From assembly GCA_024707365.1 (NCBI GenBank), contig JANPZV010000005.1:62001-126000 (forward strand): DNA of 64,000 bases, in the 5' to 3' direction. How positions within the stretch are numbered: position 1 is the first letter of the stretch; every line of letters begins with the position of its first letter. Made by a program: the position numbers and the translations under genes. The notes under the pieces are model-generated. The model saw nothing but the letters and a program-made list of their open reading frames with translations. It ran no database searches and was not told where the DNA came from. The stretch is from Terricaulis sp. Lineage in GTDB: Bacteria; Pseudomonadota; Alphaproteobacteria; Caulobacterales; Aquidulcibacteraceae. Shown piece after piece: positions 1 to 64,000 of this stretch.

Positions 1-1501
1 CAGGACGAAATCGGCGCCTTCGGCTTCGATTACGAAGGCTGGTATCTCGGCCGCCTGCGCGCCTCGCTGCGGCAAACCGAGCGCCGGCGCCTCAGCCTCA
101 CCTTCGACGGCGGCGAATTCTCCGGCGAGCAAAACCAAAGGCTGTCGCGCAGCGACGCCAGCGGGCCGCTTTCCGAAACCAGCGTGGCCGGCGATCAAAG
201 CAGTCGCTACAACAACCTCACCTTCCAGCTGCAGCAGGATGGCGAACAAGCGCGCGAGGTGCTGAAATTTGAAATCGCGCTGAGCGACAACCGCTCTGAA
301 TATGAGAACCGCCAGCTCTTCACGCCAACAGCGCCGGGGCTCGGCAGCGCCTACAACACCAGCGGCGACACCGACACCCGCAGCGCCGAGATCAAGCTGG
401 ATTTTGAAAGGCCGCTGCCGGATGAGCGATTCCTCACGCTCGGCGGCTCACTCGATTTTGGCGATGAAGCCATCCGCCATCGCTTGACGCCCGTGTTCGG
501 CGCCACCCCGCTCGCTTACGATGAAACCCACGAAGGCGAGGAGCAAACCCTCGCCGCTTACGCCACCTATCAATTCGACACCGGCGATTGGACCTGGCTG
601 CCCGGCGTGCGCGCCGAAAACTATAGCTATGAAATCCAGACCAGCAGCCTCGCCGTCGAGGATGACGATCTGCGCTTTTTCCCGAGCCTGCACATTCGCC
701 GCGCGCTCACCTCACGGATCAATGTGGATTTGAGTTATACGAGCCGCATTCGCCGGCCCGATCTTTCGCAGCTCAATCCCACCATCCGCTTTTCGGATGT
801 GAACCGCGCCAGCACCGGCAATCCGGATTTGGAGCCCACCACAACGGACGCGTTCGAGGCCAATTTCATCTATCAGAACAGCGGCACGAATTTCAGCGTC
901 ACGCTGTTTAACCGCATCTCCGAGGATGTGGTCTCGTTCTTCACGGAAACCACGCCCGAGGACATCATCCTCTCGCGCCCCGTCAATGCCGGCGAGAGCA
1001 ACGAGCTTGGCCTGCAAGCGATGCTGCGTGGGCCGCTTGGCCGCCATTGGCGCTATTCCTTGAGCGGCAACGCGCGCGACCGGGAATTCGATGTGCTCAG
1101 TGGCGGCGTCATCATTCGGCGCAGCGAATTCGAGTATGACGGCGTGCTGCAACTCACCTACGCCGACACCGATCAGAACGCCGTCGGCGCCGATCAGATG
1201 CAGGTTGACCTGCGCTTTCAGGGCCCGCGCTATCAGCTTCAAGGAGAGAGCGAAGCGTTCGTGATGGCGAACCTCACCTGGCGCCGCAAGGTTGCGGATC
1301 GGCTCTACGGGGTGTTCTCCGTGCAGGATATTTTCGACAGCACCGATCGCATCAGCGAAACCCGCACCGATAGCTTTATCGAGCGCGTGGAATTCGCCGG
1401 CCAGGGCACGCGCTTTCGGCTTGGGCTGACCTACCAGTTCGGCTCAGGCCCGCAGCGCCCCCGCCCGATCAAGGCCCGCCCATGGGCGGGGGCCCGATGT
1501 A
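1..1501 (+). CDS. TonB-dependent receptor, C-terminal barrel (5' end outside window, 3' frameshift)
   Basis: The frame is open from the first base and reads as an outer-membrane beta-barrel of the OMP_b-brl_3 type of TonB-dependent receptors: alternating strands, the family-like motif RRPDLSQLNP (about position 748-777) and a final strand ending LGLTYQFG. Such receptors take up ligands across the outer membrane with TonB energy. The plug and signal peptide lie before the window. After the last strand the frame runs on into sequence antisense to the next gene. If the C5 run at 1458-1462 were C6, the protein would instead end in a short Pro/Gly-rich tail (GPPMGGGPM) at a TAG at 1499-1501. I therefore infer one missing C and an end at 1501. 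The ligand cannot be told. Confidence 0.8.
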
Positions 1502-1511
1502 GCGCCGCGCT

Positions 1512-2407
1512 TCACGCCAGCGCGTGCTGGCGCGCGGCGCCGGGCGCGCAGCCGATGCGCTTGCGGAACGCGGTGCTGAGCGCGCTGGCGGATTCAAAAC
1601 CAACCTGCGCGGCAAGGCGATCCAGCGAAACGCGCCCGCGGCTCAACGCATCCTGCGCCAGCCGCATGCGCCAGCGCGCCAGGTACTCCATCGGCGCGCA
1701 GCCCACGACAGCCTTGAACCGCGCCGCGAACGCAGAGCGCGACATGGCCGAAAGCTTGGCGAGTTCTGCGACGCTCCAGCCACGCGCGGGCTCGGCATGG
1801 ATCGCGGCAAGGGCTGTGGCGATGCTCGGATCGCGCAGGCCAGCAAAGCAGGCCGGGCGCGGCTGACGCTTCTTCCCGCCCCGGCCAACGCAGCGCCTCC
1901 ACCAGCAGCACCTCCAGCAGATGCCGCACGATCATTTCGCGGCCAGGGCGCGCCGCGCCGCACTCATCCATGATGAGCGAGACAAGGCGCGCAATCGGCC
2001 CCGCATGCTGGGCGCGCACCAAAACCATCTCCGGCAACAGGCTGAGCAAGAGCGGCGCATTCACGGCGGAGATGGAAAAGGCCGCCAAGCATTTCAACCT
2101 CCGCCGCGCCCTCGGCCTCGCCATGACGCACGGCCGTGTAGGACGGCGCGCCCGGCGCGCACGCTGCGCCCGGCGCGCTCATCAGCGCGAAGGCCGGCGT
2201 TGTCGGAAACAGCACGAAATCCCCGCGCTCAAGCGCGATGGGCGCGCCGCCGGCGACCTCAAGCCAGCAGCGCCCTTGAAGCATCAGCGCAAAGCCCGGC
2301 GCGTCATAGGCCGGGTAGCGCACGCCCCAGCGCCCCCGCCCGCTGATCGGCTTGGACAGCGCCGCATGCGGGCGCAGCAGGCTCACGAGATCCGAGAGAG
2401 GGTCCAC
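1512..2407 (-). CDS. AraC-family transcriptional regulator (cupin_6 + HTH), two frameshifts
   Basis: Three consecutive minus-strand frames join into one regulator of about 298 residues, the usual length. The first (from GTG 2407) carries the AraC-type cupin ligand domain (GRGRWGVRYPAYDAPGFAL, ALERGDFVLFPT). The second continues it (NAPLLLSLLPEMVLVRA, then GREMIVRHLLEVLLVEALR). The third is the AraC DNA-binding domain (SRSAFAARFKAVVG, LAAQVGFESASALSTAFRKR). The joins are at the A4 run 2076-2079 and the A3 run 1845-1847 (plus strand). Removing one A from each restores one frame (GGLSISAVNAP and PGLLAGLRDPS). It is divergent from the dehydrogenase at 2497, and this family often controls such a neighbour. 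I infer an intact gene with sequence errors. Confidence 0.75.
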
Positions 2408-2451
2408 TTTGGACGATTTATAATTATTTCTGGCCTTCTAATTATATATCG
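2402..2451. promoter_or_regulatory. Divergent promoter/operator between araC-type gene and SDR
   Basis: This AT-rich island contains an inverted repeat with arms at 2414-2426 and 2439-2451 that match at 12 of 13 positions across a 12-bp spacer. Each arm contains a perfect TATAAT, one reading right (2419-2424) and one reading left (2441-2446). A second short inverted repeat, GTCCA/TGGAC, lies at 2402-2414 beside the GTG start of the regulator. The layout suggests overlapping divergent promoters with a dimer-binding site, probably for the adjacent AraC-type protein. Binding is inferred. Confidence 0.5.
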
Positions 2452-2496
2452 TCTCGCACGCTTGTCTATCCTGGGGGCCTCAAAGGAGCCCCACAC

Positions 2497-3366: not shown

Positions 3367-3400
3367 TCGCGTTCTGGGGCGTTTTCCTCCGCCGTCCGGC

Positions 3401-7564
<4,164 letters not shown>

Positions 7565-7580
7565 TCGTTTTCACCTTCCG

Positions 7581-7603
7581 CGTCCCGGACGGCCGATCCG
7601 GGA
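7581..7603 (-). promoter_or_regulatory. Hairpin in the rpoB-rpoC spacer
   Basis: A perfect 8-bp stem (GTCCCGGA/TCCGGGAC, 7581-7588 with 7596-7603) lies just before the rpoC ribosome binding site. It has no T-run, so it is more likely an RNA processing or stability element than a terminator. Confidence 0.4.
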
Positions 7604-7660
7604 CATTGGGGCAAAAATGGCCGACCCCGGCGCGCGCACCGCGCGCACGCCGGGCCGTTT

Positions 7661-11755
<4,095 letters not shown>

Positions 11756-14425: not shown

Positions 14426-14846
14426 ATGTCATTCCGCGAAAAATCAGCCTGGATCGCGCTTGCCGCCTATGGCCTCGTGTTCGGCGCGTATTTCTTCGTG
14501 CTGTGGCAGAGCTGGGGCGCCGCTTACGCGCGGGGGCTCAGCATCGGGCTGATGGTCGGCGCTGTGATCATGCTGGTGATCATCGCCGCCAGCCTGACCA
14601 TTCTCGCCGCCCTCACCGCGCCCAAGGAAGCGAACGCGCCCGCCGATGAGCGCGAACAATTGATCGACCTGAAGGCCGAGCGCATCGCCTCCTACACGCT
14701 TTTCCACCTGCGTGGTGCTGCTGATCGGGGCGCTACTGGTGGGCTGGAGCGGGGTGCTGGTGGCGAACCTCTTGCTCGCGGCCATGGTGATCGCCGAATT
14801 GGTGAAGGCGTCGGCGCAGATCATCGCCTATCGCCGGGGCGCGTGA
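14426..14846 (+). CDS. Small membrane protein upstream of XRE regulator (one frameshift)
   Basis: This protein of about 139 residues has four hydrophobic helices: IALAAYGLVFGAYFFVLW, LSIGLMVGAVIMLVIIAAS, then CVVLLIGALLVG and VLVANLLLAAMVIAELVKA. The frame breaks after helix 2. Removing one T from the T4 run 14700-14703 joins it to the second half (YTLSTCVVLLIG) and gives a TGA at 14844-14846 that overlaps the ATG of the next gene. This layout (a DUF2178-like membrane protein followed by a tiny YozG-type XRE regulator) is a known pairing in bacteria. The function is unknown. Confidence 0.7.
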
Positions 14847-15052
14847 TGGCCATCGAAAACGAGATTCGCCGCCTGCGCTTTGAACATGGCGAGATGACCC
14901 AGGCCCAACTCGCCGAGCGCATCGGCATGACGCGGCAAACCGTGATCGCCATCGAGCAAGGCAAATATTCCCCCTCGCTCGAAGCCGCGTTCAAAATCGC
15001 CGATGCGTTCGGGGTGGCGATTACGGATGTGTTTCGCTGGCCGGCCGATTAG
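14846..15052 (+). CDS. XRE-family transcriptional regulator (YozG-like)
   Basis: This 68-residue protein is almost only a helix-turn-helix: GEMTQAQLAERIGMTRQTVI, then AIEQGKYSPSLEAAFKIAD and a C-terminal ITDVFRW. The ATG overlaps the stop of the membrane-protein gene by one base (TGATG), so translation is coupled. The candidate operator at 14366-14378 lies on the operon's own start site, which suggests autorepression. The end overlaps by four bases the end of the convergent Crp/Fnr gene. Confidence 0.88.
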   Translation: MAIENEIRRLRFEHGEMTQAQLAERIGMTRQTVIAIEQGKYSPSLEAAFKIADAFGVAITDVFRWPAD

Positions 15053-18864: not shown

Positions 18865-19564
18865 TCAGGCTTGGGTGGCGTTGGACACATCCAGGCGCAC
18901 GCCCGGCCCCATCGTCGAGCTCAGCGCGATCTTGCGGACGTAAACGCCCTTGGCGCCCGTCGGCTTGGCCTTCACCACCGCATCCACCAGCGCTTTGACG
19001 TTCTGGCGGATCGCCTCTTCGGTGAAGCTCACCTTGCCGACGCCGGCGTGAATGATCCCGGCCTTTTCAGCGCGGAATTCAACGGCGCCGCCCTTGGAAT
19101 CGGCGATCGCCTTTTTCACGTCCATCGTCACGGTGCCGACCTTCGGGTTCGGCATCAGGCCGCGGGGCCCGAGCACCTTGCCGAGACGGCCGACGAGGGC
19201 CATCAGATCGGGCGTGGCGATCAGGCGATCGAACTCGATCTTGCCGCCATTGATGGTTTCAAACAGATCCTGCTCGCCCACGATGTCGGCGCCGGCGGCG
19301 CGGGCTTCATCAGCCTTGGCGCCTTTGGCAAAACACCGCAACGCGCAGCGTCTTGCCGGTGCCGTTGGGCAGGGACACAACGCCGCGCACCTGCTGATCG
19401 GGGTATTTCGGATCAACGCCGAGATTGAGCGAAACTTCGACGGTTTCGTCGAACTTCGCGCTGGCGCGTTCCTTGATCAGCTTGATCGCTTCATCGAGCG
19501 AATGCAGCTTGCGGGTGTCGATATTGGCGTGGCTCTTGGCCATGCGCTTTGTCGTCTTGGCCAT
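18865..19564 (-). CDS. rplA: 50S ribosomal protein L1 (one frameshift)
   Basis: L1 binds 23S rRNA at the E-site stalk and represses its own operon. The N-terminal 80 residues ([20 protein letters not shown]... to LRVAVF) are in one frame and the rest ([20 protein letters not shown] to the C-terminus, including [18 protein letters not shown]) in another. Removing one A from the A4 run 19330-19333 (plus strand) restores [15 protein letters not shown] exactly and gives a normal length of about 232. An L1 loss of this kind is very unlikely beside intact L11, so I read it as a sequence error. Start is 4 bp after rplK. Confidence 0.93.
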
Positions 19565-19568
19565 GGGT

Positions 19569-20015
19569 CTACTCCACCACCTGCACGCCCATCGAGCGCG
19601 CGGTGCCTGCGATCATCTTCGCGGCCTGATCGAGATCCTCCGAGTTGAGATCCTTGCTCTTGGACTTGGCGATCTCTTTGCACTGGGCGAAGGTGATCTT
19701 GCCCACGACATCCACGCCCGGCTTCTTGGAGCCATGGCCCGGCTTATACGTGGTCGGCAGCTTGGCGGCCTTCTTGATGAAGTACGACGCCGGCGGAGAC
19801 TTGATCTCGAAGGTGAAGCTCTTGTCCTGGTAGTAGGTGATGACCACCGGGCAAGGCATGCCCTTTTCCATGTCCTGCGTGCGGGCGTTAAAGCCCTTGC
19901 AGAATTCCATGATGTTCAAACCGCGCTGACCGAGCGCGGGACCGATCGGGGGCGAAGGATTCGCAGCCCCGGCCGGCACTTGGAGCTTAATCTGCCCCAG
20001 TACCTTCTTCGCCAT
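19569..20015 (-). CDS. rplK: 50S ribosomal protein L11
   Basis: This 148-residue L11 binds the GTPase-associated centre of 23S rRNA. It shows [28 protein letters not shown] and the C-terminal RNA-binding motif [14 protein letters not shown]. It is the first gene of the rplKA pair. In most alphaproteobacteria it directly follows nusG, but here 6.9 kb of accessory genes lie between them. Confidence 0.97.
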
Positions 20016-20579: not shown

Positions 20580-23268
20580 TCGCGCGCCCTGAGCGTCACC
20601 CCATAAGTGCGCGGATCGCCCAGGAAGGCGCCGTAATTGCGCAAGCCCGGATTGGCGTTGCCCGATTGCAGCGGCAGATCGAACGCCACCTGATGATAGG
20701 CCTCGTCCAGCAGATTGCGCGCCCACAGCTCAAGCCCCCAACGCTCATCCTGGCGCGAAATGCCCAGGCGCGCATTCACCAGCCAGTATTCCGGCTGGGT
20801 TTTCGCGGGGTTCAAATCAGAACCGGTGATCTGCTCGCCCGTGTAGCGGAAATCGAGATAGGCAAGGCCGAGCCACGCATCCCCGAGCGGATATTCGTAG
20901 GTGCTCGACCCCGTCACCGTCCATTCCGGCGCATTGGTGAGCCGCGCACCCGGCAGGCGCGCCAGTACGAACGTGCGCTGATAGGGATTGTAGCTATCGG
21001 CCACCCAGCCGGTGTCGCCGCCATAGACCGCATCCACATACGCCGCCGAGGCCGCGAGCGTGAGCCCCGTCAGCGGCGTGCGCCAGGTGAGATCAATTTC
21101 AGCCCCGCTCGATTCCACCTCAGGGATCGAGGCCACCTGGAAGGAGACGCCATTATAGGTGTTGAGCTGATAATTCTCATATTCGTTGAAGAACAGCGCG
21201 AGGTTCAGCAGCAGCGCGTTGGAGAACCATTGGGTTTTGACGCCGATCTCATACGCTGTCACCAATTCTGGATCGAACGCGGTGCTGAGGCTGATGTCGT
21301 AGCTCGCCGGCCCGGTTTGCACATAGCCGGAAAAATCGCGGTCGAGGTTAAAGCCGCCCGCCTTGTAGCCGCGCGAAACCGAGGCATAGCCCGCCAGCGC
21401 ATCGGTGAAGCGATGATGCAGCGCCAAGACGCCGGAGAATTCCTCCTCCTCGCGCGATTGCGTGAACGTGCGCCCATCGAGCGCGGGATTGAGCACTGGG
21501 ATGCAATAGACTTGCTGCGCATTGCCCGCGAGCGCGGAGGCTGTCGCCGTGCCCACGCCGGTGAAATCGGTGCTGCACATGCCCGCCGGCCCGCCGCCGC
21601 TATTGATCACCGCCTGGAAATCGCCCGCGCTGATCGCGCCCGCGCCCGCCAGCACCGCGTCGATCGTGGGCGCAGCGCCCCAGAGCAGCGCACCGCCGCC
21701 GGGGAATGGCGCGTTGAAATTGGTGTTAAAGCGCGCGGCGAGATCTTTTTCCTCGCGCGTGAAGCGCAGGCCGAAGGAAAGCTCCGTCGCTTGCGTCACG
21801 CTGAAGATATTGTGCGTGAACAGCGCGATCGATTGGCCGTTCTGCTCATAGCGATCCGAAACGCTGGCGCCATCGAGCGCTGCGTCCATCGCATCGGCGC
21901 CGCCCTGCACCGGATCGAACGCGGCCCACAGCGCGGGGCTGTTGAGCCGCCAGAAATCGTTGAACTGGCTGCCCAGCGTGATGCCTTCGCGCCGTTCCAA
22001 TGTTTCATCGGAATAATAAAGCCCCACCAGCCAATCGAGCCGACCGTGCTGGCCCGTGAGGCGGAATTCTTGGGTGAAGATCTCAAAGCCAAAGCCCGCA
22101 GCCCCGCCCACCGGGCGCGACCAGAGATCGGCGGCGGTGTAATCGGCATCCTGGCCGGTATTGTTGCGCCAATCGCGAAAAGCGGTGATGGAGGTGAAGC
22201 GGCCGAAATCGAAATCCCAGGTGAGCTCGCCCGAGAGGCCCCATTCCTCCACATATTGGCCGAACGCGCTGTTGGCGAAGCCGCGCCGCTGGCTCAGCTT
22301 GCCCGAGCCGATATTGGCGAGGTTGGCGTTGATCACATCGAGCGGCCCCCGCTCGCGCCCGCGCCATAGCCGCCGAGCCACGCCACCGCGCCTGCCGGGC
22401 CGGGGCTGGTCAGATTGCCGGTGAACACCGGCCAGATGTTCGGCGAAAAGCTCGTCCCGTTCACAGCTTGCGGGCTGTAAAGCTGCGCTGCGCAGCATTC
22501 TTCGTCGCGCTCAAGATAATCGGCGATGATGCGCAGATCCGCATTGGGCGAGAGCGCGAACAGAAGCTGCCCGCGCACGCTCCACAGATCGCGCGTGTTG
22601 GTATCGCGGCTGGCGCCGGTTTCATCGATCACATCGAAATAGCCGTCGCGCGAGGAGCGCACGGCGAACAGGCGCCCGCCGATCCGATCCTCCAGCAAGG
22701 GCCCGCTCACGAACGCGGACGCGCGCACCTCGTTGAACGAGGCGAACGTCACATCCCCGCCGATCTCAAGCCGATCCAGGCTCGGCGCGATGGTGGTGAC
22801 GGAGATCAGCCCCGCCGAGGTGTTGCGGCCAAACAGCGTCCCCTGCGGGCCGCGCAGCACCTCGATCTGGCTCACCTCGCCGATATCGGAAAGCGCCACC
22901 CCGTTGCGCGCGCGATAGACCCCGTCGATGAACACGCCCACCGAGCTCTCAAGCCCAGGGTTGGAGCCTTGCGTGCCGATGCCGCGCAGGCGCGCGGTGG
23001 CCGAGCTTTCGTTTTCCGAAACATTGAATTGCAGCGAGGGCACCAGGGCGGTCAGATCCTGGATGTCGCGCACGCCGGCGTTTTCCATCATCTGCGCCGT
23101 CACCGGCGTTACCGCCACCGGCACGTCCTGCAGCGCCGCCGAGCGGCGCGTGGCGGTGACGACGATCTCGGAATCCTGCGTCTGCGCCCAAGCCTCGCCC
23201 GCGCCCGCCGCGCCCGCGCCAACCCCGAGCAGCAGGCCAAACGCCGCGCGCCATTGCTTGATCCCCAT
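20576..23268 (-). CDS. TonB-dependent receptor (one frameshift)
   Basis: This is an outer-membrane receptor of about 897 residues. The signal peptide (MGIKQWRAAFGLLLGVGAGA, cleavage after EAWAQ) is followed by a TonB-box-like DSEIVVTATRR, the plug (ALQDVPVAVTPVTAQMMENA, IEVLRGPQGTLFGRNTSAGL) and a 22-strand barrel ending RTYGVTLRARD. The frame breaks near 22346. Adding one C to the C5 run 22346-22350 (plus strand) joins the halves. I chose ATG 23268. It follows the next TBDR (23476..25905) on the same strand, 207 bp and a terminator apart. The ligand is unknown; the type is common for siderophores or plant compounds in sphingomonads and caulobacters. Confidence 0.9.
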
Positions 23269-23417
23269 CCGCTCGCCCTTGTGCATCGTCTGAACGTCCC
23301 TCACGCCCGCCCCGCCCGCATGCTGCGCCAAGCGCGGCCGCGCGCCAGTTACATCAAGGAAAAATCCGGGCCCGCCGCAAGGTGAAATGCCCGTAACGCA
23401 CAGCCGTGCGCGGGCCG

Positions 23418-29976: not shown

Positions 29977-30329
29977 AGAGTGAAACACTCCCCGACACAG
30001 AAATTTGCAGGCCAATCGCGCCTCTTCACCATCGGATAGTCGCTTTTCCCCCCAGGCGCGCAACCCGCCTTTAAGGGGGAACAAATTGCGCGCGGCGCCT
30101 CATTGCTGGGCGAAACTGTGTCGAAACGGCGACGCATTAGACAGCAATTCGTCTCATGGCGGTCACCAACCCGCCATAAAGGCTTGTGGACGCCACAATC
30201 TCGGCTAAAAAAATAACAGGGGGTGGGATCAAAGGGACGAGTTCCCCCATCGCACCTACAACCGACCGCTCCGAGGCCCAGCCGGCCGTGGAGTGCTTTT
30301 CGTAATGTTTACGGGGGCGTAGCGACACC
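29977..30329. other. Divergent intergenic region, peptidase and TBDR promoters
   Basis: This 353-bp stretch lies between the divergent S9 peptidase and TBDR genes. I see no convincing open frame, no clear promoter hexamers and no strong palindrome. GC content falls near 30200-30230 (a run of seven A's). It must hold both start regions. Confidence 0.5.
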
Positions 30330-33300: not shown

Positions 33301-33414
33301 GCCGAACTACATCTCGGCCTCCAGCAACGCCACGCGCGTCGGCAACTTCCGCTGTCGTCGCAGTACGACTTCATCGGTCGTCGCGCCTACGTCAGCGTCG
33401 GCTACAACTGGTAA
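30330..33414 (+). CDS. TonB-dependent receptor (three frameshifts)
   Basis: This receptor of about 1,028 residues is split over four frames. The first has the signal peptide (cleavage after APAAMAQ), TonB box-like DDAIVVTGSRIRRNAF and the plug to LILLNGRRAGAG. The second runs LNVIPSSMIERVEILTDGAS through most of the barrel. The third starts FVPGTDNQKFFAAP and contains WSLQIGIQNVFDEAPNYIS. The fourth ends FIGRRAYVSVGYNW with terminal Trp, then TAA at 33412-33414. Joins are near 30745, at T3 33124-33126 (one T too many) and at C2 33349-33350 (one C too few). It is the large LNG-type receptor family, divergent from the S9 peptidase. Confidence 0.88.
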
Positions 33415-37631: not shown

Positions 37632-38504
37632 ATGGCCACCGACATCCAACGCAAGCTCACCACCATCCTCGCCGCCGACGCCGAAGGCTATTCGCGCGAG
37701 ATGGAGGCCGATGAGGTGCGCACGCTGGGCGCGCTGCGCGCCGCGCGCGCGGTATTTACCAAGATGATCGAAAGCCATCGCGGCCGCATCGCCAACACCG
37801 CGGGCGATGGCCTTATCGCGGAGTTTCCCTCTGCGGTGGAAGCGGTGCGCTGCGCCGTGGAGGTGCAGCGCGAACTCGGCAGCCTCACCGATATCGGCGC
37901 GCTGCGCTTTCGCATCGGCATTCATCTCGGCGATGTGCTTGTCGATGGCAATGACCTTCTGGGCGAAGGCGTGAACCTCGCGGCGCGGCTGCAAACCATG
38001 GCCGATCCGGGCGGGGTGCTGATCTCGCAGCAGGTCTATGATCAGGTGCAGAAAAAGCTTTCCGTCGGCTTTGAATATCTCGGCGAAAAGCGCCCGAAGA
38101 ATTTCGCCGAGGATGTCGCCGTCTATCGCATCGCCGGCGGCGAAGATGGCGTGGCGCTGCCGCGCCCGCGCCCGCTCGCCGCGCCGGTCGATCCAGGGCT
38201 TGGCCCTAAGATCAAACGCAACGCCATCATTCTTGGCGCGCTCGCCGCGCTCGTGGTGATCGCCAACATCGCCACCGGCGGGCAGCCTTGGGCGCATTGG
38301 ATCATTCTGATCATGGCCGCCTGGCTTGCCTGGAGCGCCGCGCCGCTGTTTGCGCAAGGCGTGCGCCTTAAATGGCTGCGCACCTTCATCAGCATCGCGC
38401 TGCTGGCGCTGGTGAACATCTTCACCTGGGAAGGCTCGCCCTGGTTCCTCTGGGTCGGCGGCGTCGTCATCTTCATCACGCTGATGCGCTCACTGAAGCG
38501 CTAG
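37632..38504 (+). CDS. Class III adenylate/guanylate cyclase-like protein with 2TM tail
   Basis: This 290-residue protein has an N-terminal nucleotide cyclase homology domain (KLTTILAADAEGYSREMEAD, NTAGDGLIAEFPSAVEAVRC, GEGVNLAARLQTMADPGGVL). The two metal-binding Asp positions are present (Asp16, Asp59), so activity is plausible. The C-terminal 95 residues hold two to four hydrophobic helices (IILGALAALVVIANIATGG, WIILIMAAWLAWSAAPLFAQ, WFLWVGGVVIFITLMRSL), a 2TM-type domain. It would make cAMP or cGMP at the inner membrane. It is divergent from the GIN gene. Predicted from sequence only. Confidence 0.87.
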   Translation: MATDIQRKLTTILAADAEGYSREMEADEVRTLGALRAARAVFTKMIESHRGRIANTAGDGLIAEFPSAVEAVRCAVEVQRELGSLTDIGALRFRIGIHLGDVLVDGNDLLGEGVNLAARLQTMADPGGVLISQQVYDQVQKKLSVGFEYLGEKRPKNFAEDVAVYRIAGGEDGVALPRPRPLAAPVDPGLGPKIKRNAIILGALAALVVIANIATGGQPWAHWIILIMAAWLAWSAAPLFAQGVRLKWLRTFISIALLALVNIFTWEGSPWFLWVGGVVIFITLMRSLKR

Positions 38505-38686
38505 CGCGCATGGCGCTTATCAGGCCGCGCCAATCAGAGCCGCGAAATCCGCCTCGCCCCACATGAAGCGCCATAGAGGGGGCGCTGGTATTTAAGCGGG
38601 GCGGCGCAAGCCCAGCAATGCAAAACTCCGCACGCGCGCTGGCGGTATCCATGCGCGCATGCCATGCTTGGCGCATGGAGGCGCGC

Positions 38687-39956
38687 ATGCGTATCAGAGC
38701 CTTGTGTTTTGCTCTGTGTTTCTTCACCGCCTGCGCCAGCGCGCCGGAGGCCGAGCCCGAAGCGCCGCGCCTGATCATCATGGCCGAAACCTCCTGCACA
38801 GCGCTCGAAGCGCACGCCGCTGGCGATCACGAAACCGCCGCCTGGGCGGGCGATGTGGCGCGCACCGCCTGCGCCCTGCCGATTGACGATCTCACCGCCG
38901 AAGCCGCCCACGCACTTTTAGGCGAGGCGCCCCTGCACATCGCGCGCGATGGCGATGCGCTCACCATCTTCGCCCGCTCGACGCGGGAGCAGCCGCGGCT
39001 TTGCTGTTCGCTGCAAGCGCCCATGGCCCCGCTCGGCGATGATCTCTGGGCGTTGCGCTTTCGCCTGGCCGAACTTCGATCGCGCGATGCTGATGTTCCT
39101 GGCGCCGGATGATCGCCTGAACTGGCGGGAGTGGCGCGGGCCCGATGCGCCGCCCGCGCCGGCGCAAAAGAGCCCGATCGCCGGCCAAATCATCGAGCGC
39201 ACGCTTGCCAGCGCGCACCTTGGCGAAACGCGGCGGCTCAATATCTATCTCCCGCCCGGCCATCACGCGGGCGGCGATTACGCCGCGCTGGTGATGGCCG
39301 ATGGCGCACCGCCGCCTTCGCGCGCTTCATCGAGCCCTTGATCGAAAGCGGCGATCGAGCCGCTTGTGCTGATCGGCATTGAATCGGGCCAGGATGGCAT
39401 CGTTGAAGATCGCAGCGGCCTTGGCGTGCGCGGCAATGATCTGCGCGGCGCCGATTATCTTCCCGGCTGGGAAGGCGCAGGCGATCGCTTCGCGCAGCAC
39501 ATGCGCTTCGTGACCGATGAGGTTTTGCCTTATGCGGAGCGCGAGTTTTCCATCACCCAAGATCGCACGCGGCGGGGCGTGGATGGCTTCTCCAACGGCG
39601 CGGTGTTTGCGCTTTGGGCCGGCGTCATGGCGCCTGAGAGTTTCGGCGTCGCGATCGCTCGCTCGGCCGGCTATGACCGCGAGATGCCGGCGCAGGACAT
39701 GCTCGCCCAGCTCGCGCATACGCGCTTCTTCATCAGCGCCGGCCTCTATGAATCCTCTTTCTGGCGCGCCTCAAAGCATTGGGCCGACACGCTGCGCCCG
39801 CATGCGCAAAGCGTCGTGTTCACCGCCCCCGCCGGCGGGCACGCGCCCGATCAGGGCGCGCTGATGCTGGTGCAATATCTGCGCGAAGCATTCCCCGCGC
39901 GCGGCGGCGCGCGCCTAGCAGGCTTCAGGACGCGGGCCGTACGCGGTCGTTGCTGA
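38687..39956 (+). CDS. Esterase-like lipoprotein (about three frameshifts)
   Basis: Pieces in several frames make one enzyme of the putative esterase (enterochelin-esterase-like) alpha/beta-hydrolase fold. The first has a lipoprotein signal (MRIRALCFALCFFTAC, Cys at the lipobox) and continues to WALRF. The second gives NFDRAMLMFLAPDDRLNW and RTLASAHLGETRRLNIYLPP. The last gives LVLIGIESGQDG, FVTDEVLPYAEREFSI and the nucleophile motif GFSNGA. Joins are at T3 39059-39061 (one T too many), near 39305-39312 (one base missing) and near 39350. The end is uncertain; the true stop may be shortly before 39956. The gene is convergent with the M23 peptidase. Confidence 0.68.
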
Positions 39957-41086: not shown

Positions 41087-43169
41087 TTAGGCGCGGAGCT
41101 TGGCCAGCACTTCGGCGCTCACGGCCTTCGGCACTTCTTCGTAATGGCTAAATTCCATCACGTAGGAAGCGCGCCCCTGGGAGAATGAGCGCAGCGTGTT
41201 CACGTAGCCGAACATGTTGGCCAACGGCACCATCGCGTTGATAATGGTGGCGTTGCCGCGCATGTCTTGGCCTTGGATCATGCCGCGGCGCGAGTTCAAA
41301 TCGCCGATCACCGAGCCGACATATTCTTCGGGGCTCGTCACTTCCACTTTCATGATCGGCTCGAGCAGGCGCGCATCGCCCTTCTCTTTCAGCTCACGGA
41401 ACGCAGCTTGCGCCGCGATCTGGAAGGTCAGCACGTTGGAGTCGACGTCGTGGTAGCGGCCATCGACGAGGCGCGCGGCCACATCGATCACCGGGAAGCC
41501 GGCCAGCAGGCCGTTTTCCTTGGCCATGTTGAGGCCTTTTTCCACGCCGGGAATGAATTCCTTCGGGATGGCGCCGCCAACGATCTTGTTCTCGAACACA
41601 AAGCCCGTGCCCGGCTCGCCGGGTTCAAACTCGATCTTCACTTCGGCGAACTGGCCCGAACCGCCGGTTTGCTTCTTGTGCACGTAATGGATCGTCGCCG
41701 CGCGGCCGAGCTTTTCGCGATAGGCCACCTGCGGCGCGCCCACGTTCGCGTCCACTTTGTAGGTGCGGCGCAGGATGTCGATTTTGATGTCGAGGTGCAA
41801 CTCGCCCATCCCCTTGAGGATGGTTTGGCCGCTCTCGTGATCGGTCGAAACCCGGAAGCTGGGATCTTCGTTGGCGAGCTTGGAGAGCGCCACGCCCAGC
41901 TTTTCCTGATCGGCCTTCGATTTCGGCTCAACCGCCACTTCGATAACCGGCTCGGGGAATTCCATGCGCTCGAGGATCACGGCCTTGTTGGGGTCGCACA
42001 GCGTGTCGCCGGTGCGCACTTCCTTGAGGCCCGCCAGCGCCAGAATATCGCCGGCATAGGCTTCCTTGATGTCTTCGCGGTTGTTGGCGTGCATCAGCAG
42101 CATGCGGCCCGCGCGCTCTTTTTTATCGCGCGTGGAATTCAGCAGCGCATCGCCCGCGTTCAGCACGCCCGAATAGATGCGGCAGAACGTGATCGTGCCC
42201 ACGAACGGGTCGTCCATGATCTTGAACGCCAGCAGCGAAAGCGGCTCGCTGTCGTCGGACTTGCGGATGATTTCCTTTTCCGGATCGTCCATGTCCACGC
42301 CCTTGATGGCGGGGCGGTCGATCGGGCTCGGCAGGTAATCGACAACGGCGTCAAGCAGCGGCTGCACGCCCTTGTTCTTGAAGGCCGAGCCGCAGAACAT
42401 CGGATAAAACGCGCTCGTCAGCACCGCCTTGCGGATCAGCGTCTTCAGCGTCGCCGTATCGGGCTCTTCGCCTTCGAGATATTTTTTCCATCACCGCATC
42501 ATCGAGCTCGACAGCGGCTTCGATCAGGCCCGAGCGATACTCGGCGGCCTTCTCTTTCAGATCATCCGGGATCTCGGTGATGTCGAACTTCATGCCCGAA
42601 GGATCGTCCTTCCAGGCGATCGCCTTCATCTCGACGAGATCGACCATGCCGCGGAAGGTGTTTTCCGCGCCGATCGGCAGCTGCATCGGCACCGGGCGCG
42701 CGCCCAGGCGCTTCTTGATGTCCTCGACGCACATGTAAAAGTCGGCGCCGATCTTATCCATCTTGTTGGCGAAGATGATGCGCGGCACCTTGTATTTGTC
42801 GCCTTGGCGCCAAACGGTTTCGGTCTGCGGCTCAACGCCCTGGTTGCCGTCGAGCACCACCACCGCGCCATCGAGCACGCGGAGCGAACGCTCAACCTCG
42901 ATGGTGAAATCGACGTGCCCAGGCGTGTCGATGATGTTGAGGCGCTTGTCTTTCCAGAATGTCGTGGTCGCGGCCGAGGTGATGGTGATGCCGCGCTCCT
43001 GCTCCTGCTCCATCCAATCCATGGTGGCGGAGCCTTCGTGCGTTTCGCCGATCTTGTGGTTCTTGCCGCTGAAAAACAGAATCCGCTCTGTCGTCGTCGT
43101 CTTGCCCGCGTCGATGTGGGCCATGATGCCGAAATTGCGGTAGTCTTCGATTTTATACTGACGAGCCAT
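41087..43169 (-). CDS. fusA: Elongation factor G (one frameshift)
   Basis: EF-G drives GTP-dependent ribosome translocation. The GTPase part is complete ([45 protein letters not shown]), then the frame changes. Domains III-V are in the second part ([20 protein letters not shown] to the C-terminus with [20 protein letters not shown]). Removing one T from the T6 run 42482-42487 (plus strand) restores [20 protein letters not shown] exactly. A single extra base in a homopolymer of an essential gene is best read as sequence error. Spacing to rpsG is 87 bp. Confidence 0.94.
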
Positions 43170-44571: not shown

Positions 44572-45102
44572 ATGAAGATCGTTGCATTCGCGCTTGCCTT
44601 CATGGCCGGGCTTTGGATCGCCGCGCCGCAAGCCGCCGCCCAACAGGACGCCGACCCGGTCGCCAGCTGCCGCGCGGCGCACGGCGCGGACGCCGCCGCC
44701 CGCATCACCTGCCTTGAGGCCGCGATCGCCCGCATGCAGGGCCGCGTCACCGAGGCCGAGCAACACGCCGCCGAAGCCCAGCAGCAGGTCGCCCAGGCCG
44801 AACAGCGCGCTGAAAGCGGCCGCCCGGCCTGGTCCCTGCCCGGCTTCCGCGCGCGCCAAGACGCCGAGGCCGGCCCGCAGGAGGCGCGCGTGCAGCTGGT
44901 TCGCATCCGCTATGGCCGCGATGGCTACGGCTTCTTCACCACCTCCGAAGGCCAGGTCTGGCGTGAAACCGTCGCCGCCCCCGCCCGCCGCCATCTCGAT
45001 ACCGACCAAACCTACGAAGCGGTGATCCGCAGCGGCATGCTGGGCTATCGCATGCATGTGGACGGCATCCGCTGGGAATACAAAGTCGAGCCGCTCAACT
45101 AG
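44572..45102 (+). CDS. Exported coiled-coil hypothetical protein
   Basis: This 176-residue protein has a signal peptide (MKIVAFALAFMAGLWIAAPQ, then AAAQ) and a Glu/Gln/Ala-rich helix predicted to be coiled coil (AAIARMQGRVTEAEQHAAEA, QQQVAQAEQRAE). The C-terminal domain contains VQLVRIRYGRDGYGFFTTSE and YRMHVDGIRWEYKVEPLN. I chose ATG 44572, with AGGGGTGTCCC upstream. The next gene starts 3 bp after its stop, so it is co-transcribed with the TPR/2OG-oxygenase. Homologues exist as exported hypotheticals; I infer no function. Confidence 0.78.
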   Translation: MKIVAFALAFMAGLWIAAPQAAAQQDADPVASCRAAHGADAAARITCLEAAIARMQGRVTEAEQHAAEAQQQVAQAEQRAESGRPAWSLPGFRARQDAEAGPQEARVQLVRIRYGRDGYGFFTTSEGQVWRETVAAPARRHLDTDQTYEAVIRSGMLGYRMHVDGIRWEYKVEPLN

Positions 45103-45105
45103 GCC

Positions 45106-46963
45106 ATGGCCGCACCACGCATCACGTTGACGCAGGCGGAAGCGCAGACGCTGATGCGCGCCTTCAGCGTGCTGCAGCGCGGGGACGCCGCCACAGCCGC
45201 CGGCGAAGCGGCCAAGGTGCTGCGCAGCGCGCCTGCCTCGCCGGATGCGCATCACCTGCTGGCGCTGTGCCAGCAGCGCCGCGGCGATCATGGCGCGGCG
45301 CTCGCCTCGTTCGAGCGCGCACTTGAACACGCCCCGCGCCATCCGGCGATGCTGAGCAATGCCGGCGCGCTTTTGCTCGCGATGGGCCGCGCGCAGGAAG
45401 CGGTGCAAAAGCAGCAAGCGGCGTTGCGCGCCGATCCCAACCATCTCGATGCCTGGATCAGCCTCGCGCACGCGCGGCTGGCGCTCTCTGACGTGAACGG
45501 CGCGCTGGCCGCCGCGCGGGAGGCGCTCAAGCGCGCGCCCAAAACGCCGCGCGCGCTGCACGCGCTCGCCGCCGCGCTGCGCGAGCAAGGCGATCTCGAT
45601 GGCGCCGAGGACGCTTTGCGCAACGCGCTGGCGCTTGATCCCAACAGCGGCTGGGCCTGGACATCGCTCGGCATCGTGCGCCGCCTGATCGGCGATCCGG
45701 AGGATCTCGCTTCACTGCTACGCCAAGGCGCGCGCACTGGGCTATGACACGCCCGAACTGGCGGACGCCGAGGCCAGCGCGCATCTCGATGTCGGCGATC
45801 ACACGCGCGCGCTTGAAGCTGCGCAGGCGCTGATCGCGGCGCGGCCCGATTATGTCGCCGGCCATGTGCTGGCGGCGCACATTCGTTGGGAATATGGCGT
45901 GGGCGCTGAAAACGATCCGCTCGCGGCGCTCGATCAAGCGGCGGCGGCGCAGCCGCAGAACCATGCGCTGCGCGGCGCGCTGATCAACGCGCTGCTGGAA
46001 GCTGAACGCGCCGAAGAAGCGCTGGCGCACATCCGCATCGGCCGCGCCGCGCGCGATGAGCCTGCGCTCGCCGCCGCACACGCCAACGCGCTGCACTTGC
46101 TGGGCGACATCGAGGGGGCGGTGCGCGTGCTCGAAGAGGCGGCGCCGCAGATGGCCGCATCACCTGGCTTTTGCATCGCCTTCGCGCGCCAGCTGATCCG
46201 CGCCCAGCGCGCCGACGCCGCAGCGCACTACGCGCTCAGCGCCGCCCAAGCAGAACCGCTCAATCAAGAGGGCTGGGCTCTGCTCGGCATCATCTGGCGG
46301 CTGCTCAATGATCCGCGCGAGCACTGGCTCTGCGACTATGAGCGTTTCGTGATGATCGATCAGGTCGAGCCGCCGCCCGGCTACGCCAGCCGCGAAGACT
46401 TTGTCACCGCGCTCCAAGCTGAGCTCACATCGCTGCATCGCGCCCAACATGCGCCGCTAAATCAGAGCTTGCGCGGGGGCACGCAAACGCCCGGCAGCCT
46501 GTTTGGCCGGCGCAATCTGATGATCGCCGCGGCGCGCGATGCGCTGCGCGCCAGCGTGGAACGCATGATCGCGGCATTGCCCGAAGATCCAGGCCACCCC
46601 TTCCTCGGCCGGCGCGCGCCAAGCATTCATTTTTCGGGATCATGGTCCGTGCGGCTGCGCAGCGCGGGCCGGCATGTGAACCACTATCATCCGCGCGGCT
46701 GGATCAGCTCGGCTTTCTATATCGAGCTGCCGCCCAGCGTGGCGCACGATACGGCCGACCGATCGGGCTGGATCCAATTCGGCCAGCCGCCGCTACAATA
46801 TGAAACGGGGCTCGAGCCGCGCCGCGTGATCCAGCCCAAGATCGGGCGCTTGGTGATTTTTCCGTCTTACATGTGGCACGGCACCGTGCCCTTCAGCGAC
46901 GATGCGCACCGCATGACCATGGCGTTTGACGCCATACCCGCCAAGCACACCCCCAATCGCTGA
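45106..46963 (+). CDS. TPR-repeat protein with C-terminal 2OG-Fe(II) oxygenase domain (one frameshift)
   Basis: This fusion of about 619 residues begins with tetratricopeptide repeats (ALLLAMGRAQEAVQKQQAAL, ARLALSDVNGALAAAREALK, AALREQGDLDGAEDALRNAL). It ends with a putative 2OG-Fe(II) oxygenase of the 2OG_Fe(II)_oxy_5 type (INFSGSWSVRL-like HFSGSWSVRLRSAGRHVNHY, ISSAFYIELPP, FPSYMWHGTVPF), where paired His residues bind iron. The frame changes near 45711. Removing one T from 45711-45712 gives LAHCYAKARALGYDTPEL and joins the parts. A hydroxylase acting on a protein or small molecule is possible. The upstream exported gene is 3 bp away. Confidence 0.85.
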
Positions 46964-47043: not shown

Positions 47044-47068
47044 AATCCTTTGATTGTCAGACAATCGC

Positions 47069-50092: not shown

Positions 50093-50474
50093 ATTTCGAA
50101 CCCCCTAGAGCGCCGGGTCTCGCCACCAGCGGCGGAACCCTGTCTTCTCTAACTTCAGTTTTCGAGCACACGGCTCGAGCGGACGTTGAACCGGAACGCC
50201 GAGGTTGGGCCCCGGTAGATCGACTCCCGCCATGCTGCTGCAACCGATGCGACACAAATATTCCAAGGTCAAACCACCTTCGCCGCAATTCACGCGAACG
50301 AATGGGGAACATCAACAACTCCCCGCCACACTGTGGCTTCGGCGCCAAAGCTTTGTGCACACCCGCCAACAGCCCTAAATTTCAGTTAAAACTACACCGT
50401 GCATCGGCGCCCGCCGGGAGGGGAAAACACGCCCCCTCTACCGGTGCGCCTGCTGTGCGCCTATTTTGCCGTTC
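50093..50474. other. Divergent region before uvrB
   Basis: This 382-bp stretch separates the leftward TBDR from rightward uvrB. No credible gene, RNA or strong repeat is visible. The AT-rich piece at about 50375-50400 (CTAAATTTCAGTTAAAACTA) is the best place for a uvrB promoter. No LexA box was recognised by eye. Confidence 0.5.
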
Positions 50475-52753: not shown

Positions 52754-52757
<4 letters not shown>

Positions 52758-54637: not shown

Positions 54638-55884
54638 TCAATTTTTCGCCGCCAGCGTATCGAGGTGCTGTCGGATATGCGCCGCTTCCGCCGGCGTGTT
54701 GGCCAGCGCGATCGCCCGGCCAAACGCGTCCGCCGCCTCTTGGTTGCGCCCCAGCTGCATCAGCAAATGCCCGCGCACGCCATGGAAATAGAAATAGCTC
54801 TTCAGCCGTTCGCCCAAAGGCTCCGCCATCGCCAGCGCCGCTTCGGCCCCATGCGCCTTGGCATGCGCCACCGCGCGATTGAGGCTCACCACCGGCGAAG
54901 GCGTCAGATGCTCCAGCGCGCCGTAGAGCAAATCGATCTGCACCCAATCGGTCTCAGCGGCGGTTTTGGCGCGCGCATGCAACGCCGCGATCGCCGCCTG
55001 CACTTGATAGGGCCCGCGCGCCCGATGGCGGATCGCCTTATCGATCAGCGCCAGCCCTTCCTGGATCGGCTCCCGATGCCAAAGCCCGCGATCCTGATCT
55101 TCCAGCAAAATGATCGCGCCCGCGCCATCAAACCGCGCGCCCAGCCGCGCGTGCTGCAGCAGCATCAGCGCAAGCAATCCCATGATTTCCGGCTCAGCCG
55201 GATAAAGGCTGAGCAAAAGCCGCGTCAGCCGAATTGCTTCATCGCACAGCCGCGCCCGTGCGCCGGCCTCTTCGGCGGGCGCCGAGTAGCCTTCGTTGAA
55301 CACAAGATAAAGCATCGCCGCCACAGCCGCCACGCGCTCGGAACGCTCCGCCGCGCTCGGGGTTTCAAACGCCACGCCCGCGCCGGCGATTTTATTTTTT
55401 CGCGCGCGTGATGCGTTGCTCCATCGCGGCTTCCCCAACCAGGAACGCGCGCGCGATTTGCTTCACGCTGAGGCCAGATACAATCCTGAGCGCCACCGCG
55501 ATCTGCTGCGTCGCCGGCAAATCGGGGTGGCAGCAGATAAACAAAAGCCTGAGCACATCGTCGCGATAATCGCCGTCATCGATCGCACGCGCCGCATCGG
55601 CTTCTGCATCGCCCAGATCGGAAAGCTGGCCTTCCTCCGGCAGGCGGCGCCAGCCGGCTTTGCTTGCGCACCGCGTCAATCGCCGCATTGCGGCCCACCA
55701 TGATCAGCCACGCCGCCGCATCGCGCGGCGGGCCGTTCTTGGGCCAGTTTTTCAAAGCGCGCAGGCACGCCTCTTGAAACGCCTCCTCGGCCGTATCGAG
55801 ATCGCGGAAATAGCGCATCAGCGCGCCCACCGCCTGCGGCCGCGCGCCGGAAAGCGCAGCTTCAATCCAGCCGAGTTCGCTCAT
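54638..55884 (-). CDS. ECF42-type RNA polymerase sigma factor (two frameshifts)
   Basis: This ECF sigma factor has a long C-terminal domain (DUF6596/TPR-like). Region 2 (EAFQEACLRALKNWPKNGPP, AWLIMVGRNAAIDAVRK) is in the first frame. Region 4 (DVLRLLFICCHPDLPATQQI, GLSVKQIARAFLVGEAAMEQ) is in the second. The C-terminal domain (LYLVFNEGYSAPAEEAGARA, MLLQHARLGARFDGAG) is in the third. Removing one T each from 55659-55661 and 55395-55400 joins RKQAGWRRLPEEGQ and RAKNKIAGAGVAFE into about 414 residues. The TAA of the DGPF gene touches its ATG, which is typical of ECF42 operons where the DGPF protein is a partner instead of an anti-sigma factor. Confidence 0.85.
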
Positions 55885-58001: not shown

Positions 58002-58764
58002 ATGAATTGGCGTTCGACCTATTGCGGCGCAGAGCCGCAGCGCGTGAACAAATGGCTGGCGGCCGAGGGCGTCTGCTCACGGCGCGAGGCCGAGGCGCTG
58101 ATCGCCAAAGGGCTTGTGACGATCGACGGCCAGCGCGTCGATGATCCGGGCCGCAAGATCGCGCCGGGGCAAAGCATCGAGGTGGGCGCGCCCCATGCGC
58201 GGCCGCAGATTTCGGCGGTGCTGAACAAGCCGGTGGGGTTTGTCTCCGCCCAGCCCGAGAGGGATCAGATTCCCGCCGCGCGCCTCGTCACCCGCGCCAA
58301 CCTTGTTGGCCCGCCGCGCAATCTGCCCACCAAGCGCACGCGCCTTGCCCCGCTTGGCCGGCTCGATCAGGATTCGCGCGGGCTCTTGCTGCTGAGCGAA
58401 GATGGCGTGCTGGCCAAGGCGGTGATCGGGCCAGAATCAAAGCTCGATAAGGAATATCTTGTCCGCGTCGATGGCCGCATCGATGAGGCCAAGCTGAAAA
58501 ATGCTGCGCCATGGGCTGATGCTCGATGGCCGCCAGCTCAAGCCGGCGAAGATCACGCAGATCGAGCCGCAGCGCATGCGCTTTGTGCTCACCGAGGGCC
58601 GCAACCGGCAGATCCGGCGGATGTGCGAATTGGTGGATCTTGCCGTCACCGATCTTCTGCGCATTCGCATCGGCCCGCTCAATCTTGGCGATCTGCCCGA
58701 GGGCCAATGGCGCGCGCTCAGCCCCGATGAGCGCGAGGCGATCATCAAGGCAAGCCAGGCTTGA
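58002..58764 (+). CDS. rRNA pseudouridine synthase, RsuA/RluF family (one frameshift)
   Basis: An N-terminal S4 RNA-binding domain ([40 protein letters not shown]) precedes a pseudouridine synthase domain with the catalytic Asp in [14 protein letters not shown]. The last part ([38 protein letters not shown]) is in another frame. Removing one A from the A5 run 58497-58501 joins [11 protein letters not shown] and gives about 253 residues. It modifies uridine in 23S or 16S rRNA. It most resembles the RluF subgroup, but I do not assign a symbol. Confidence 0.88.
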
Positions 58765-61200: not shown

Positions 61201-61213
61201 AGCGCGATGTTCG

Positions 61214-61343
61214 TCCTCCCCCGCGAGGGGGGGGGGGCTCGCGGCGGAGCCGCGAGACGGAGGGGCGAGCGCGAGGGCCTGCAAGCCTCTGCGCCGCCCC
61301 CTCAGTCACGCTCTCGCGTGACAGCTCCCCCTATCGGGGGAGC
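61214..61343. repeat. Cluster of intergenic hairpins with G11 run
   Basis: Between the convergent peroxiredoxin and GNAT genes lie three palindromes: 61238-61256 (CTCGCGG/CCGCGAG), 61305-61322 (GTCACGC/GCGTGAC) and 61324-61343 (GCTCCCCC/GGGGGAGC). They are preceded by a run of 11 G's at 61227-61237. It is a REP-like or bidirectional termination region. The length of the G run may itself be unreliable. Confidence 0.6.
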
Positions 61344-61356
61344 GCGTGGGTCAGCC

Positions 61357-61626: not shown

Positions 61627-61670
61627 CGGGGCTCCTGGCGCTTGGGGCCGCATCGCGTTAGCGGTGCGCG

Positions 61671-62498: not shown

Positions 62499-62552
62499 GC
62501 CGTTACACCCGTCACTAGACGAAGCGGCGGTTTCGCGGCCACAAAAGCCGGC

Positions 62553-63165
62553 ATGACCGAAATCCTCGCTTTTCTGCAGCAGCCCATCATCGCCCTGCCC
62601 GTCGTCATCGGCACGGTGGCGGCGATCTTTCTTTTCCGGGCGGCCGTTCACGGCGATCTATGTAGCGCTGATGCCGCTGATCAATTGGGCCTTCGCCGGC
62701 ATCCCCACGCTGCCGCTGCCCGAATGGATGGGCGGGGGCGAATGGCACCCCTTCACCATCGTGACGGGGCTTGTGCTGGTGGCGCGCGATTTTGCCCAGC
62801 GCGAGCTGAAACATTGGATTTTTGGGGCGATGCTGATCGGCCTCACGCTTTCGACGCTGACCACATGGCCGGTGATCGTGGTGGCCAGCGGGCTGGCGTT
62901 TTTGATCAGCGAAACCGCCGATTGGGCGGTCTACACTTTTGTGAAACGCCCGCTTTCGCAGCGCATCATGCTCTCCAGCGCGATCGGCGCGCCGTTGGAT
63001 CAGTTCGTGTTTTTGGGGCTGGCTTCGCTGGTCGTGCCGGGCCTTTTCGCCTGGGGCTCTATAGTTACCGGGATCGTATCGAAATTGATCGGCGCCTGGG
63101 TGATCTCGCGGCTAGTGGCGCGGCAGGAGCGGAAAGCCGCGAAAATCGAGATGAAACCGGCGTAA
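62553..63165 (+). CDS. VUT-family queuosine-precursor transporter-like protein (one frameshift)
   Basis: This inner-membrane protein has about six helices and belongs to the YhhQ/VUT family of putative queuosine-precursor or vitamin transporters. The first helix (MTEILAFLQQPIIALPVVIG, TVAAIFL) is in one frame and the rest (MPLINWAFAGIPTLPLPE, VARDFAQRELKHWIF, FLISETADWAVYTFVKRPLS) in another. Removing one T from the T4 run 62632-62635 gives IFLSGRPFTAIYVALMPLIN. The length is then about 203 residues. The ISETADWAVYT and RDFAQRE motifs are characteristic. Confidence 0.88.
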
Positions 63166-63378
63166 GTACGCTTTTGGCGCTTGCGGGAAAACCGGCTCTC
63201 GCGCATAAACAGACTAGTGAAGACCCGGCAGGTGGGCCGGAATTGGTGCGAAGTTCCGCAAAGTGCGGCAAGTATTCTTTCCCCAACATAGCAGGAATTC
63301 GCGGTGACCGGCGTGCGCTTTCGCGCGCGCACGGCCGATGGCGCGCGCCATAGGCCCTAAGACTAGGAAAAAGTGGAA

Positions 63379-64000
63379 ATGAGTTTCGACGACGATTTTG
63401 GCGGCGACGACGACCGGGACGACAAGAAAAAAGATAAGCGCGGCGGGCGTGGGCGCGAGCGCGAGTCCAGTGAATTTGGCGGCGGCAGCGACTTTGGCGG
63501 CGGCGGTGGCGGCGGCTTTGGCGGCGGCGGCGGCGGGTATCGCGGCGGCGGTGATCGCGGCGGCGGCGGTGGCGGGTACGGCGGCGGCGGGTATCGCGGC
63601 GGCGGCTCCGGCTTCGGCGGCGGCGGTGGCGACCGTGGCGGCGGCGGCGGATATCGCGGCGGCGGTGGCGGCGGCTATGGCGGCGGCGGTGATCGCGGCG
63701 GCGGCGGCGGGTATCGCGGCGGCGGCGGTGGCGGCGGCTACGGTGGTGGCGGCGGTGGTTTCCGCGGCGGCGGCGGTGGCGGCGGCGGTTTCCGCAGCGG
63801 CCCGCGTGAAGGCGGCTTCGGCGGCGGCGGCGATCGCCCCCCGCGTCAGCCCCTGGGCGATCCGCAGGACGGCACGGTGAAGTTCTTCAACGGCGCCCGC
63901 GGCTTTGGCTTCATCACCCCCGATGGCGGCGGCGCCGACGTGTTCGTCCACGTCAGCGCGGTGGAGCGTGCGGGCCTTGCGGCTCTCACCGAAGGCCAGC
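63379..64000 (+). CDS. Glycine/arginine-rich cold-shock domain protein (3' end outside window)
   Basis: The first 30 residues are very charged ([19 protein letters not shown]). About 120 residues of nearly pure Gly with Tyr, Arg, Phe and Asp follow ([14 protein letters not shown] units). A cold-shock domain then begins at about residue 164 ([26 protein letters not shown]), giving the two RNA-binding motifs. This is an intrinsically disordered RGG/YGG arm on an RNA chaperone. A low-complexity GGC repeat (63477-63835) has probably expanded and contracted; the same stretch gives a spurious Ala-rich frame on the other strand. The ATG at 63379 has only a weak ribosome binding site. Confidence 0.88.

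Follow-up and report, generated by a model that had tools for sequence, protein, structure and literature searches.

Residual single-base consensus errors as the probable source of frame breaks in a Terricaulis contig, with a possible footprint of DNA modification at CGATCG and GGCGCC

Long-read assemblies carry two kinds of systematic error that bear directly on the present case, as described in those parts of the cited sources that were consulted here. In nanopore assemblies, homopolymer indels (insertions and deletions) cause frameshifts (PMC9262707); C and G runs fare worse than A and T runs, and the errors are mainly shortened long runs, together with some overestimated short ones (PMC8486125). 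Methylation motifs rank among the main causes of error in nanopore consensus sequences (PMC6591954). Errors of this kind stem from modifications unfamiliar to the basecaller and are mainly mismatches (PMC10687267), and they hit only some occurrences of a motif (PMC12392509). Frameshifts in nanopore metagenome-assembled genomes are also on record. Related genomes have served to recognize gene-fragmenting or systematic errors in long-read assemblies, as in Kastor (PMC12007338) and Homopolish (PMC8011154). The subject of this work is a series of single-base frame breaks in a 64,000-base stretch of Terricaulis sp. DNA (hereafter, the window), comprising bases 62001-126000 of contig C5 (JANPZV010000005.1; 1,780,775 bases) in the assembly GCA_024707365.1 (G000; 3.43 Mb in 8 contigs, with a completeness score of 89.73). 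The window encodes rpoC, rpoB, rplK, rplA, fusA, uvrB, several TonB receptors, and tRNA-Trp; the name rpoC rests on the gene's position beside rpoB and on its conservation.

As in the homopolymer reports (PMC8486125, PMC9262707), run indels in the window fragment gene calls and C/G is worse affected than A/T; there, in the portions consulted, long runs are mainly shortened, whereas here A/T runs are one base too long and G/C runs of at least 5 are one base too short. As in modification-mediated errors (PMC6591954, PMC10687267, PMC12392509), events cluster at short motifs and touch part of their occurrences. Here, the motifs are CGATCG and GGCGCC, the visible class is indels, and modification is putative, whereas the errors described in the consulted part of PMC10687267 are mainly mismatches. 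Relative to Kastor and Homopolish, the present comparison with related genomes is limited to diagnosis, and no corrected sequence was produced.

The frame breaks are best explained as residual, systematic single-base consensus errors of an incompletely polished long-read metagenome assembly, a reading to which we assign a probability of about 94%. That figure covers the artefact itself; the cause of its motif-linked class is a separate question, taken up below. Frames were checked by aligning unbroken open reading frames (ORFs) of eleven same-genus genomes against the window by dynamic programming, with single-base shifts permitted. A shift was counted where two or more relatives agreed, making up no less than 60% of those covering it, at an identity of at least 40% and with 25 aligned residues per side. 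By this rule, 103,391 aligned coding bases of G000 held 21 extra-base and 11 missing-base events (the first set) and zero in-frame stops. Ten same-genus relatives together held 3 indels and one in-frame stop in 480,594 bases, and one of those 3 indels (in G018) is a one-base overlap created by a join in this analysis. The sampled part of C5 amounts to 664 kb and includes a further 400-kb stretch, ~76 kb of it alignable, which yielded 21 more indels (the second set) and zero nonsense codons; the rule there was looser, with one relative being enough (9 of the 21 events had two), and rows below 50% identity (C5:411523, C5:513377) were left out. The first set corresponds to ~3 indels per 10 kb of coding sequence aligned, and the density is similar across the rest of the sampled contig.

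Real gene decay, in which the lineage gathers pseudogenes through slippage, would likewise alter reading frames in many genes and leave them annotatable as pseudogenes. We consider it highly improbable, since there are zero nonsense codons alongside 53 indels in the two sets (larger lesions lay outside the scoring), the sign of the indels follows mainly the type of base, and the relatives are intact. Conserved genes are not spared either. Both rplA and fusA are broken in the window and unbroken at the break site in 9/9 and 6/6 relatives, respectively, with 693-amino acid FusA copies in the four relatives displayed; fusA is an essential gene. Across quartiles of identity of the covered bases, from lowest to highest, the events number 6, 11, 12, and 3 (p = 0.54), giving no overall bias towards poorly conserved genes, with 3 of 32 events in the most conserved quartile. 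Taken as a whole, indels without nonsense codons, broken fusA and rplA, intact relatives, an even density, and the absence of a conservation bias uphold the systematic consensus error proposed in a preliminary description of this DNA.

Several breaks fall on runs of 4-6 A or T bases, as might be expected if programmed ribosomal frameshifting or transcriptional slippage decoded the runs and the genes were functional as written. This explanation is less probable still than decay. Same-genus homologues lack the shift at the break sites: no aligned relative keeps the shifted frame, and the confirmed sites are read there in one frame. Moreover, many breaks lie off runs, and they are of both signs, in unrelated contexts and unrelated genes.

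One relative, G023 (a single contig), is the sole genome that resembles G000 and may likewise be assembled from long reads without polishing: in 123,335 bases, 17 events with a missing base, 9 with an extra base, and 1 stop were counted. Under the looser single-relative rule, G023 gave 25 events and five other genomes gave 0 to 3 each, and single-relative events are therefore taken to be noisier. In the first region, there were just 2 such events, too few for testing. Separately, CCCC is the most enriched 4-mer near the events of G023 (loci L032-L035 and L065-L074).

The preliminary description had listed 19 runs in the window as sites of frame breaks, and a break relative to homologues was recovered at 15 of them. 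Where a listed site lacked coverage by the main rule, 24 same-genus genomes were searched with protein pieces and the ORFs of matching loci were aligned. The genes that carry breaks, followed by the rpoC-rpoB pair as an internal control, are as follows.

1..1496, forward strand: TonB-dependent receptor / outer membrane protein beta-barrel gene (PF14905, PF00593); one base short near 1456.
1539..2422, reverse strand: Cupin_6-domain gene (PF12852; homologues at 46-47% identity); an extra base near 1845 and another near 2074.
14426..14843, forward strand: gene of ~140 codons; an extra base in the run of four T at 14700-14703.
18868..19570, reverse strand: rplA, ribosomal protein L1 (PF00687); an extra base in the run of four A at 19330-19333.
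20582..23331, reverse strand: TonB-dependent receptor (PF00593, PF07715); one base short at 22320-22350 (run of five C at 22346-22350).
30315..33411, forward strand: TonB-dependent-receptor-like gene with a Plug domain (PF07715); three breaks, namely an extra base at 30744 (in GGCGCC), an extra base at 33124-33142, and a base missing at 33344-33350.
38372..39953, forward strand: esterase-family gene (PF00756); an extra base near 39077, close to CGATCG.
41090..43169, reverse strand: fusA, elongation factor G (PF00009, PF03764, PF14492); an extra base in the run of six T at 42482-42487.
45065..46960, forward strand: TPR / 2OG-Fe(II) oxygenase gene (PF13759; close homologue at 65% identity); an extra base near 45706.
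54644..55884, reverse strand: DUF6596-domain gene (PF20239); an extra base in the run of six T at 55395-55400 and another whose favoured position is 55643-55644, in GGCGCC.
58002..58758, forward strand: S4-domain RNA pseudouridine synthase (PF01479, PF00849); an extra base in the run of five A at 58497-58501.
62523..63162, forward strand: Vut_1 transporter gene (PF02592); an extra base at the T runs 62628-62635.
3404..11755, reverse strand: rpoC and rpoB; free of a frame break of their own.

Every covering homologue shows the shift at 1845 and 2076 (2/2 each), 14700 (3/3), 19330 (9/9), 22346 (10/10), 33124 and 33349 (2/2 each), 42482 (6/6), 45711 (1/1), 55395 and 55659 (5/5 each), 58497 (5/5), and 62632 (4/4). 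At 1458, judged on alignments looser than the main threshold, 6 of 9 aligned relatives show it within about the last 13 codons. At 39059, one of two homologues shows a shift and the other aligns in one frame across the stop at 39339. Two further listed breaks lack support. At 29895, no shift appears in two homologues (41-42% identity) whose alignments extend to 29926 and 29899, and at 53485, a missing base is seen in 0 of 8 covering homologues, with an extra base at 53491 in one. The last two listed sites, 18587 and 18653, lie past the alignable part of a GH16 gene, where the furthest alignment stops at 18578. The extra base at 30744, seen in 6/6 homologues, was absent from the earlier list. 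A possible shift at 45101, seen with one homologue and within roughly the first twelve codons, is kept apart from the confirmed breaks. In rpoC and rpoB, ~2.6 breaks would be expected in 8.3 kb, and zero is compatible with chance.

How closely a break could be placed on its listed run varies. A nucleotide-level posterior favours the named run at 14700 (0.99), 19330 (1.0), 42482 (1.0), 58497 (0.99), and 55395 (0.69). It prefers the neighbouring run of three T at 62628-62630 to 62632 (0.68 vs. 0.20), and the break listed at 39059 falls ~18 bases away, near CGATCG. For the site listed at 55659, homologues put the break at 55643-55644 in GGCGCC (0.95), unlike an ab initio frame hidden Markov model, which places it at 55658/55659, i.e., on the originally named T run. 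At 1845, 2076, 22346, 33124, and 45711, the best posterior lies off the named run, the homologues being too distant or too few to decide, and for the same reason the supported break at 33349 has no exact position. The motif-linked class takes in the break at 30744 and, going by homologues, that at ~55644; the break at ~39077, seen with one homologue, probably belongs to it as well. The posterior's placement of deletions on runs is biased, as skipping a mismatched reference base scores well, and proximity to runs was therefore used instead. The hidden Markov model, built on codon hexamers, was rejected as a detector: its frame changes were excessive in most genomes even under a strict penalty (29.9 per 100 kb in G000 vs. 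0-26.7 in eleven others), and it was therefore used only for choosing reference ORFs on the coding strand.

For classification, a table of 61 events was assembled from the 32 of the first set, the 21 of the second, and 8 window sites tested with other homologues (the possible shift at 45101 among the latter). An event was assigned to the motif class if CGATCG or GGCGCC lay within 12 bases, and otherwise to the longest run no more than 7 bases away. Twenty-two events lie near a run of at least 4 away from motifs, and for 15 both a motif and a run of 4 are lacking. In the preliminary description, A/T runs were always one base too long and G/C runs always one base too short. Outside the motif class, this holds for A/T runs and for G/C runs of at least 5, but four-base G/C runs do not follow it strictly. 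There, runs of at least 5 comprise 9 long and 0 short for A/T, and 0 long and 6 short for G/C (Fisher p = 2e-4); with runs of at least 4, the counts are 14 and 0, and 2 and 6, respectively (p = 4e-4). In all, the sign rule fits 20 of the 61 events. As a control, runs of at least 4 in G023 show 2 long and 4 short for A/T, and 3 long and 8 short for G/C (p = 1); the rule therefore belongs to the G000 data set and not to the method. Among 4-mers, AAAA is the top-ranked near first-set events (11/32, 2.4 expected), with CCCC at 10/32 (3.5 expected); in the second set, AAAA (6/21, 1.85 expected) ranks after GAGA.

An account based on runs misses two palindromes, CGATCG and GGCGCC, near which 24 of the 61 events lie. 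The class includes 15 extra and 9 missing bases, so that its events are of either sign. CGATCG is the top-ranked 6-mer of the first set (8/32 events, 1.02 expected, p = 5.6e-6) and GGCGCC ranks second (7/32, 1.03 expected, p = 5.9e-5), or joint second with another background sample (p = 1.3e-4). The second stretch gives 3/21 for CGATCG (p = 0.017), 5/21 for GGCGCC (p = 0.001), and 8/21 for either motif (nominal p = 2e-5), where the background rate is 6.2%. When the two sets are pooled, one of the two motifs is found within 12 bases of 23 of the 53 events, with 3.3 expected. No convincing enrichment near events was seen for GATC alone in the first set (p = 0.025 to 0.14, depending on the radius), nor for GANTC, which we take to be the expected CcrM site.

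From sequence statistics of this kind, it is tempting to suggest that the organism has two DNA-modification activities, one for CGATCG and one for GGCGCC, and that an excess of single-base indels betrays them in the assembly alone; we rate this somewhat below an even chance. The same artefact could arise with no DNA modification if palindromes or G/C-rich flanks are hard contexts for the polisher or for a nanopore or PacBio platform, a variant within the artefact reading whose odds overlap those of the preferred explanation and which we regard as less likely than not. Several GGCGCC and CGATCG events do adjoin G or C runs of 3-5, CGGCCG is mildly enriched, and GGCGCC reaches 3/26 in G023 (0.91 expected, p = 0.06). 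PacBio assemblies also have G/C runs 1 bp short, according to the part of PMC11649196 consulted. A hard context fits less well with the fact that, among the 6-base palindromes displayed, only CGATCG and GGCGCC stand out strongly; apart from CGGCCG, the others are at or near background, including the equally G/C-rich GCGCGC, CGCGCG, and GCCGGC. CGATCG in G023 is at 2/26 (0.78 expected, p = 0.18), and neither motif is significant in that genome.

Under the preferred explanation, two processes act on the consensus. In the first, run lengths are misread and base type largely decides the direction: A/T runs of ~4-6 come out one base too long and G/C runs of ~5 one base too short. In the second, single bases are gained or lost in or close to CGATCG and GGCGCC; the simplest account is that the palindromes bear modified bases unfamiliar to the basecaller's training. 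What is directly observed are the indels, the contexts in which they lie, and the lack of them in relatives; we infer that the platform was most likely nanopore sequencing of native DNA and that the two palindromes are modified.

A number of points weigh against this explanation or parts of it. The proximity classes, for runs and motifs alike, were set after the data had been seen. The motif p-values are uncorrected, and over the ~2080 possible 6-mers those of the first set become ~0.01 for CGATCG and ~0.1 for GGCGCC. Before the second stretch, only CGATCG had been named, and GGCGCC, listed in the earlier scan, was singled out afterwards. Only ~4% of motif sites are affected (CGATCG 11/247, GGCGCC 12/291), and for a few events of the motif class the nucleotide posterior gives a position tens of bases away (e.g., C5:60156 and C5:451020). 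A partial regular-expression and Pfam look over the 664 kb found no DNA methyltransferase among methyltransferase-like ORFs. The sign rule is countered by an extra G in the run of four G at C5:61826-61829 (window position -174; posterior 0.99, 9/9 relatives) and an extra base at C5:405473, 6 bases from another run of four G. Possible further exceptions, both of the motif class, are C5:143711, where a run of five G has an extra base 7 bases from CGATCG, and C5:60156, where a base is missing near GGCGCC and 5 bases from a run of five T. The fusA evidence concerns the copy in the window. Finally, the platform is not fixed, because PacBio assemblies also show short G/C runs. Lengthening of A/T runs is not the usual nanopore direction, and the exact direction was not found in those parts of the literature that were searched; lengthened A/T runs look like a particular of the G000 data set.

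Biologically the finding is unremarkable, it works neatly as a diagnostic, and only its motif footprint deserves a follow-up. Twelve genes of the window are broken, and automatic annotation may label them pseudogenes. Such breaks mislead inferences of gene loss and metabolism, and the completeness score has probably been lowered. If the density seen here were uniform, about a thousand errors of this kind would be expected in a 3.4-Mb genome. Single extra bases also yield false fusions: the one at 14700-14703 joins the ~140-codon gene with the gene of a small HTH_3 regulator downstream into a false 208-codon ORF (14426-15052) with HTH_3 in its tail, when the relatives of the first gene (129-143 amino acids, 3/3) terminate at 14840-14843. 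Going by the motif class, published long-read genomes may store indirect information on DNA modification. If the two activities are real, the modified motifs of uncultured species could be guessed from public long-read genomes with no need for the raw signal.

The remaining observations are minor. The four methyltransferase-like candidate ORFs proved to be RlmJ, PriA, a histidine phosphotransferase, and one without a match, and none could be linked to the motifs. At the equivalent of position 9247 in rpoB, the relative G008 (L054, G008:C39 near base 95190) has one base missing vs. 11/11 other genomes, likely an assembly error in G008. Extra events from unfiltered ORFs (e.g., at ~12.9-13.3 kb, 18.8 kb, and 43.7-44.2 kb, and on antisense ORFs) were dropped as shadow or non-coding. 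Long open frames run antisense to TonB-receptor-like genes at 30724-32034 and 47054-50152, an ORF-calling hazard of high G+C content. The sole run above 7 bases in the window is an 11-base G run at 61227-61237, with G/C-rich surroundings that look hairpin-like. Lastly, a ~27-base sequence at L228:18020-18046 is a dispersed repeat; of seven same-genus genomes searched, several have it at many places.

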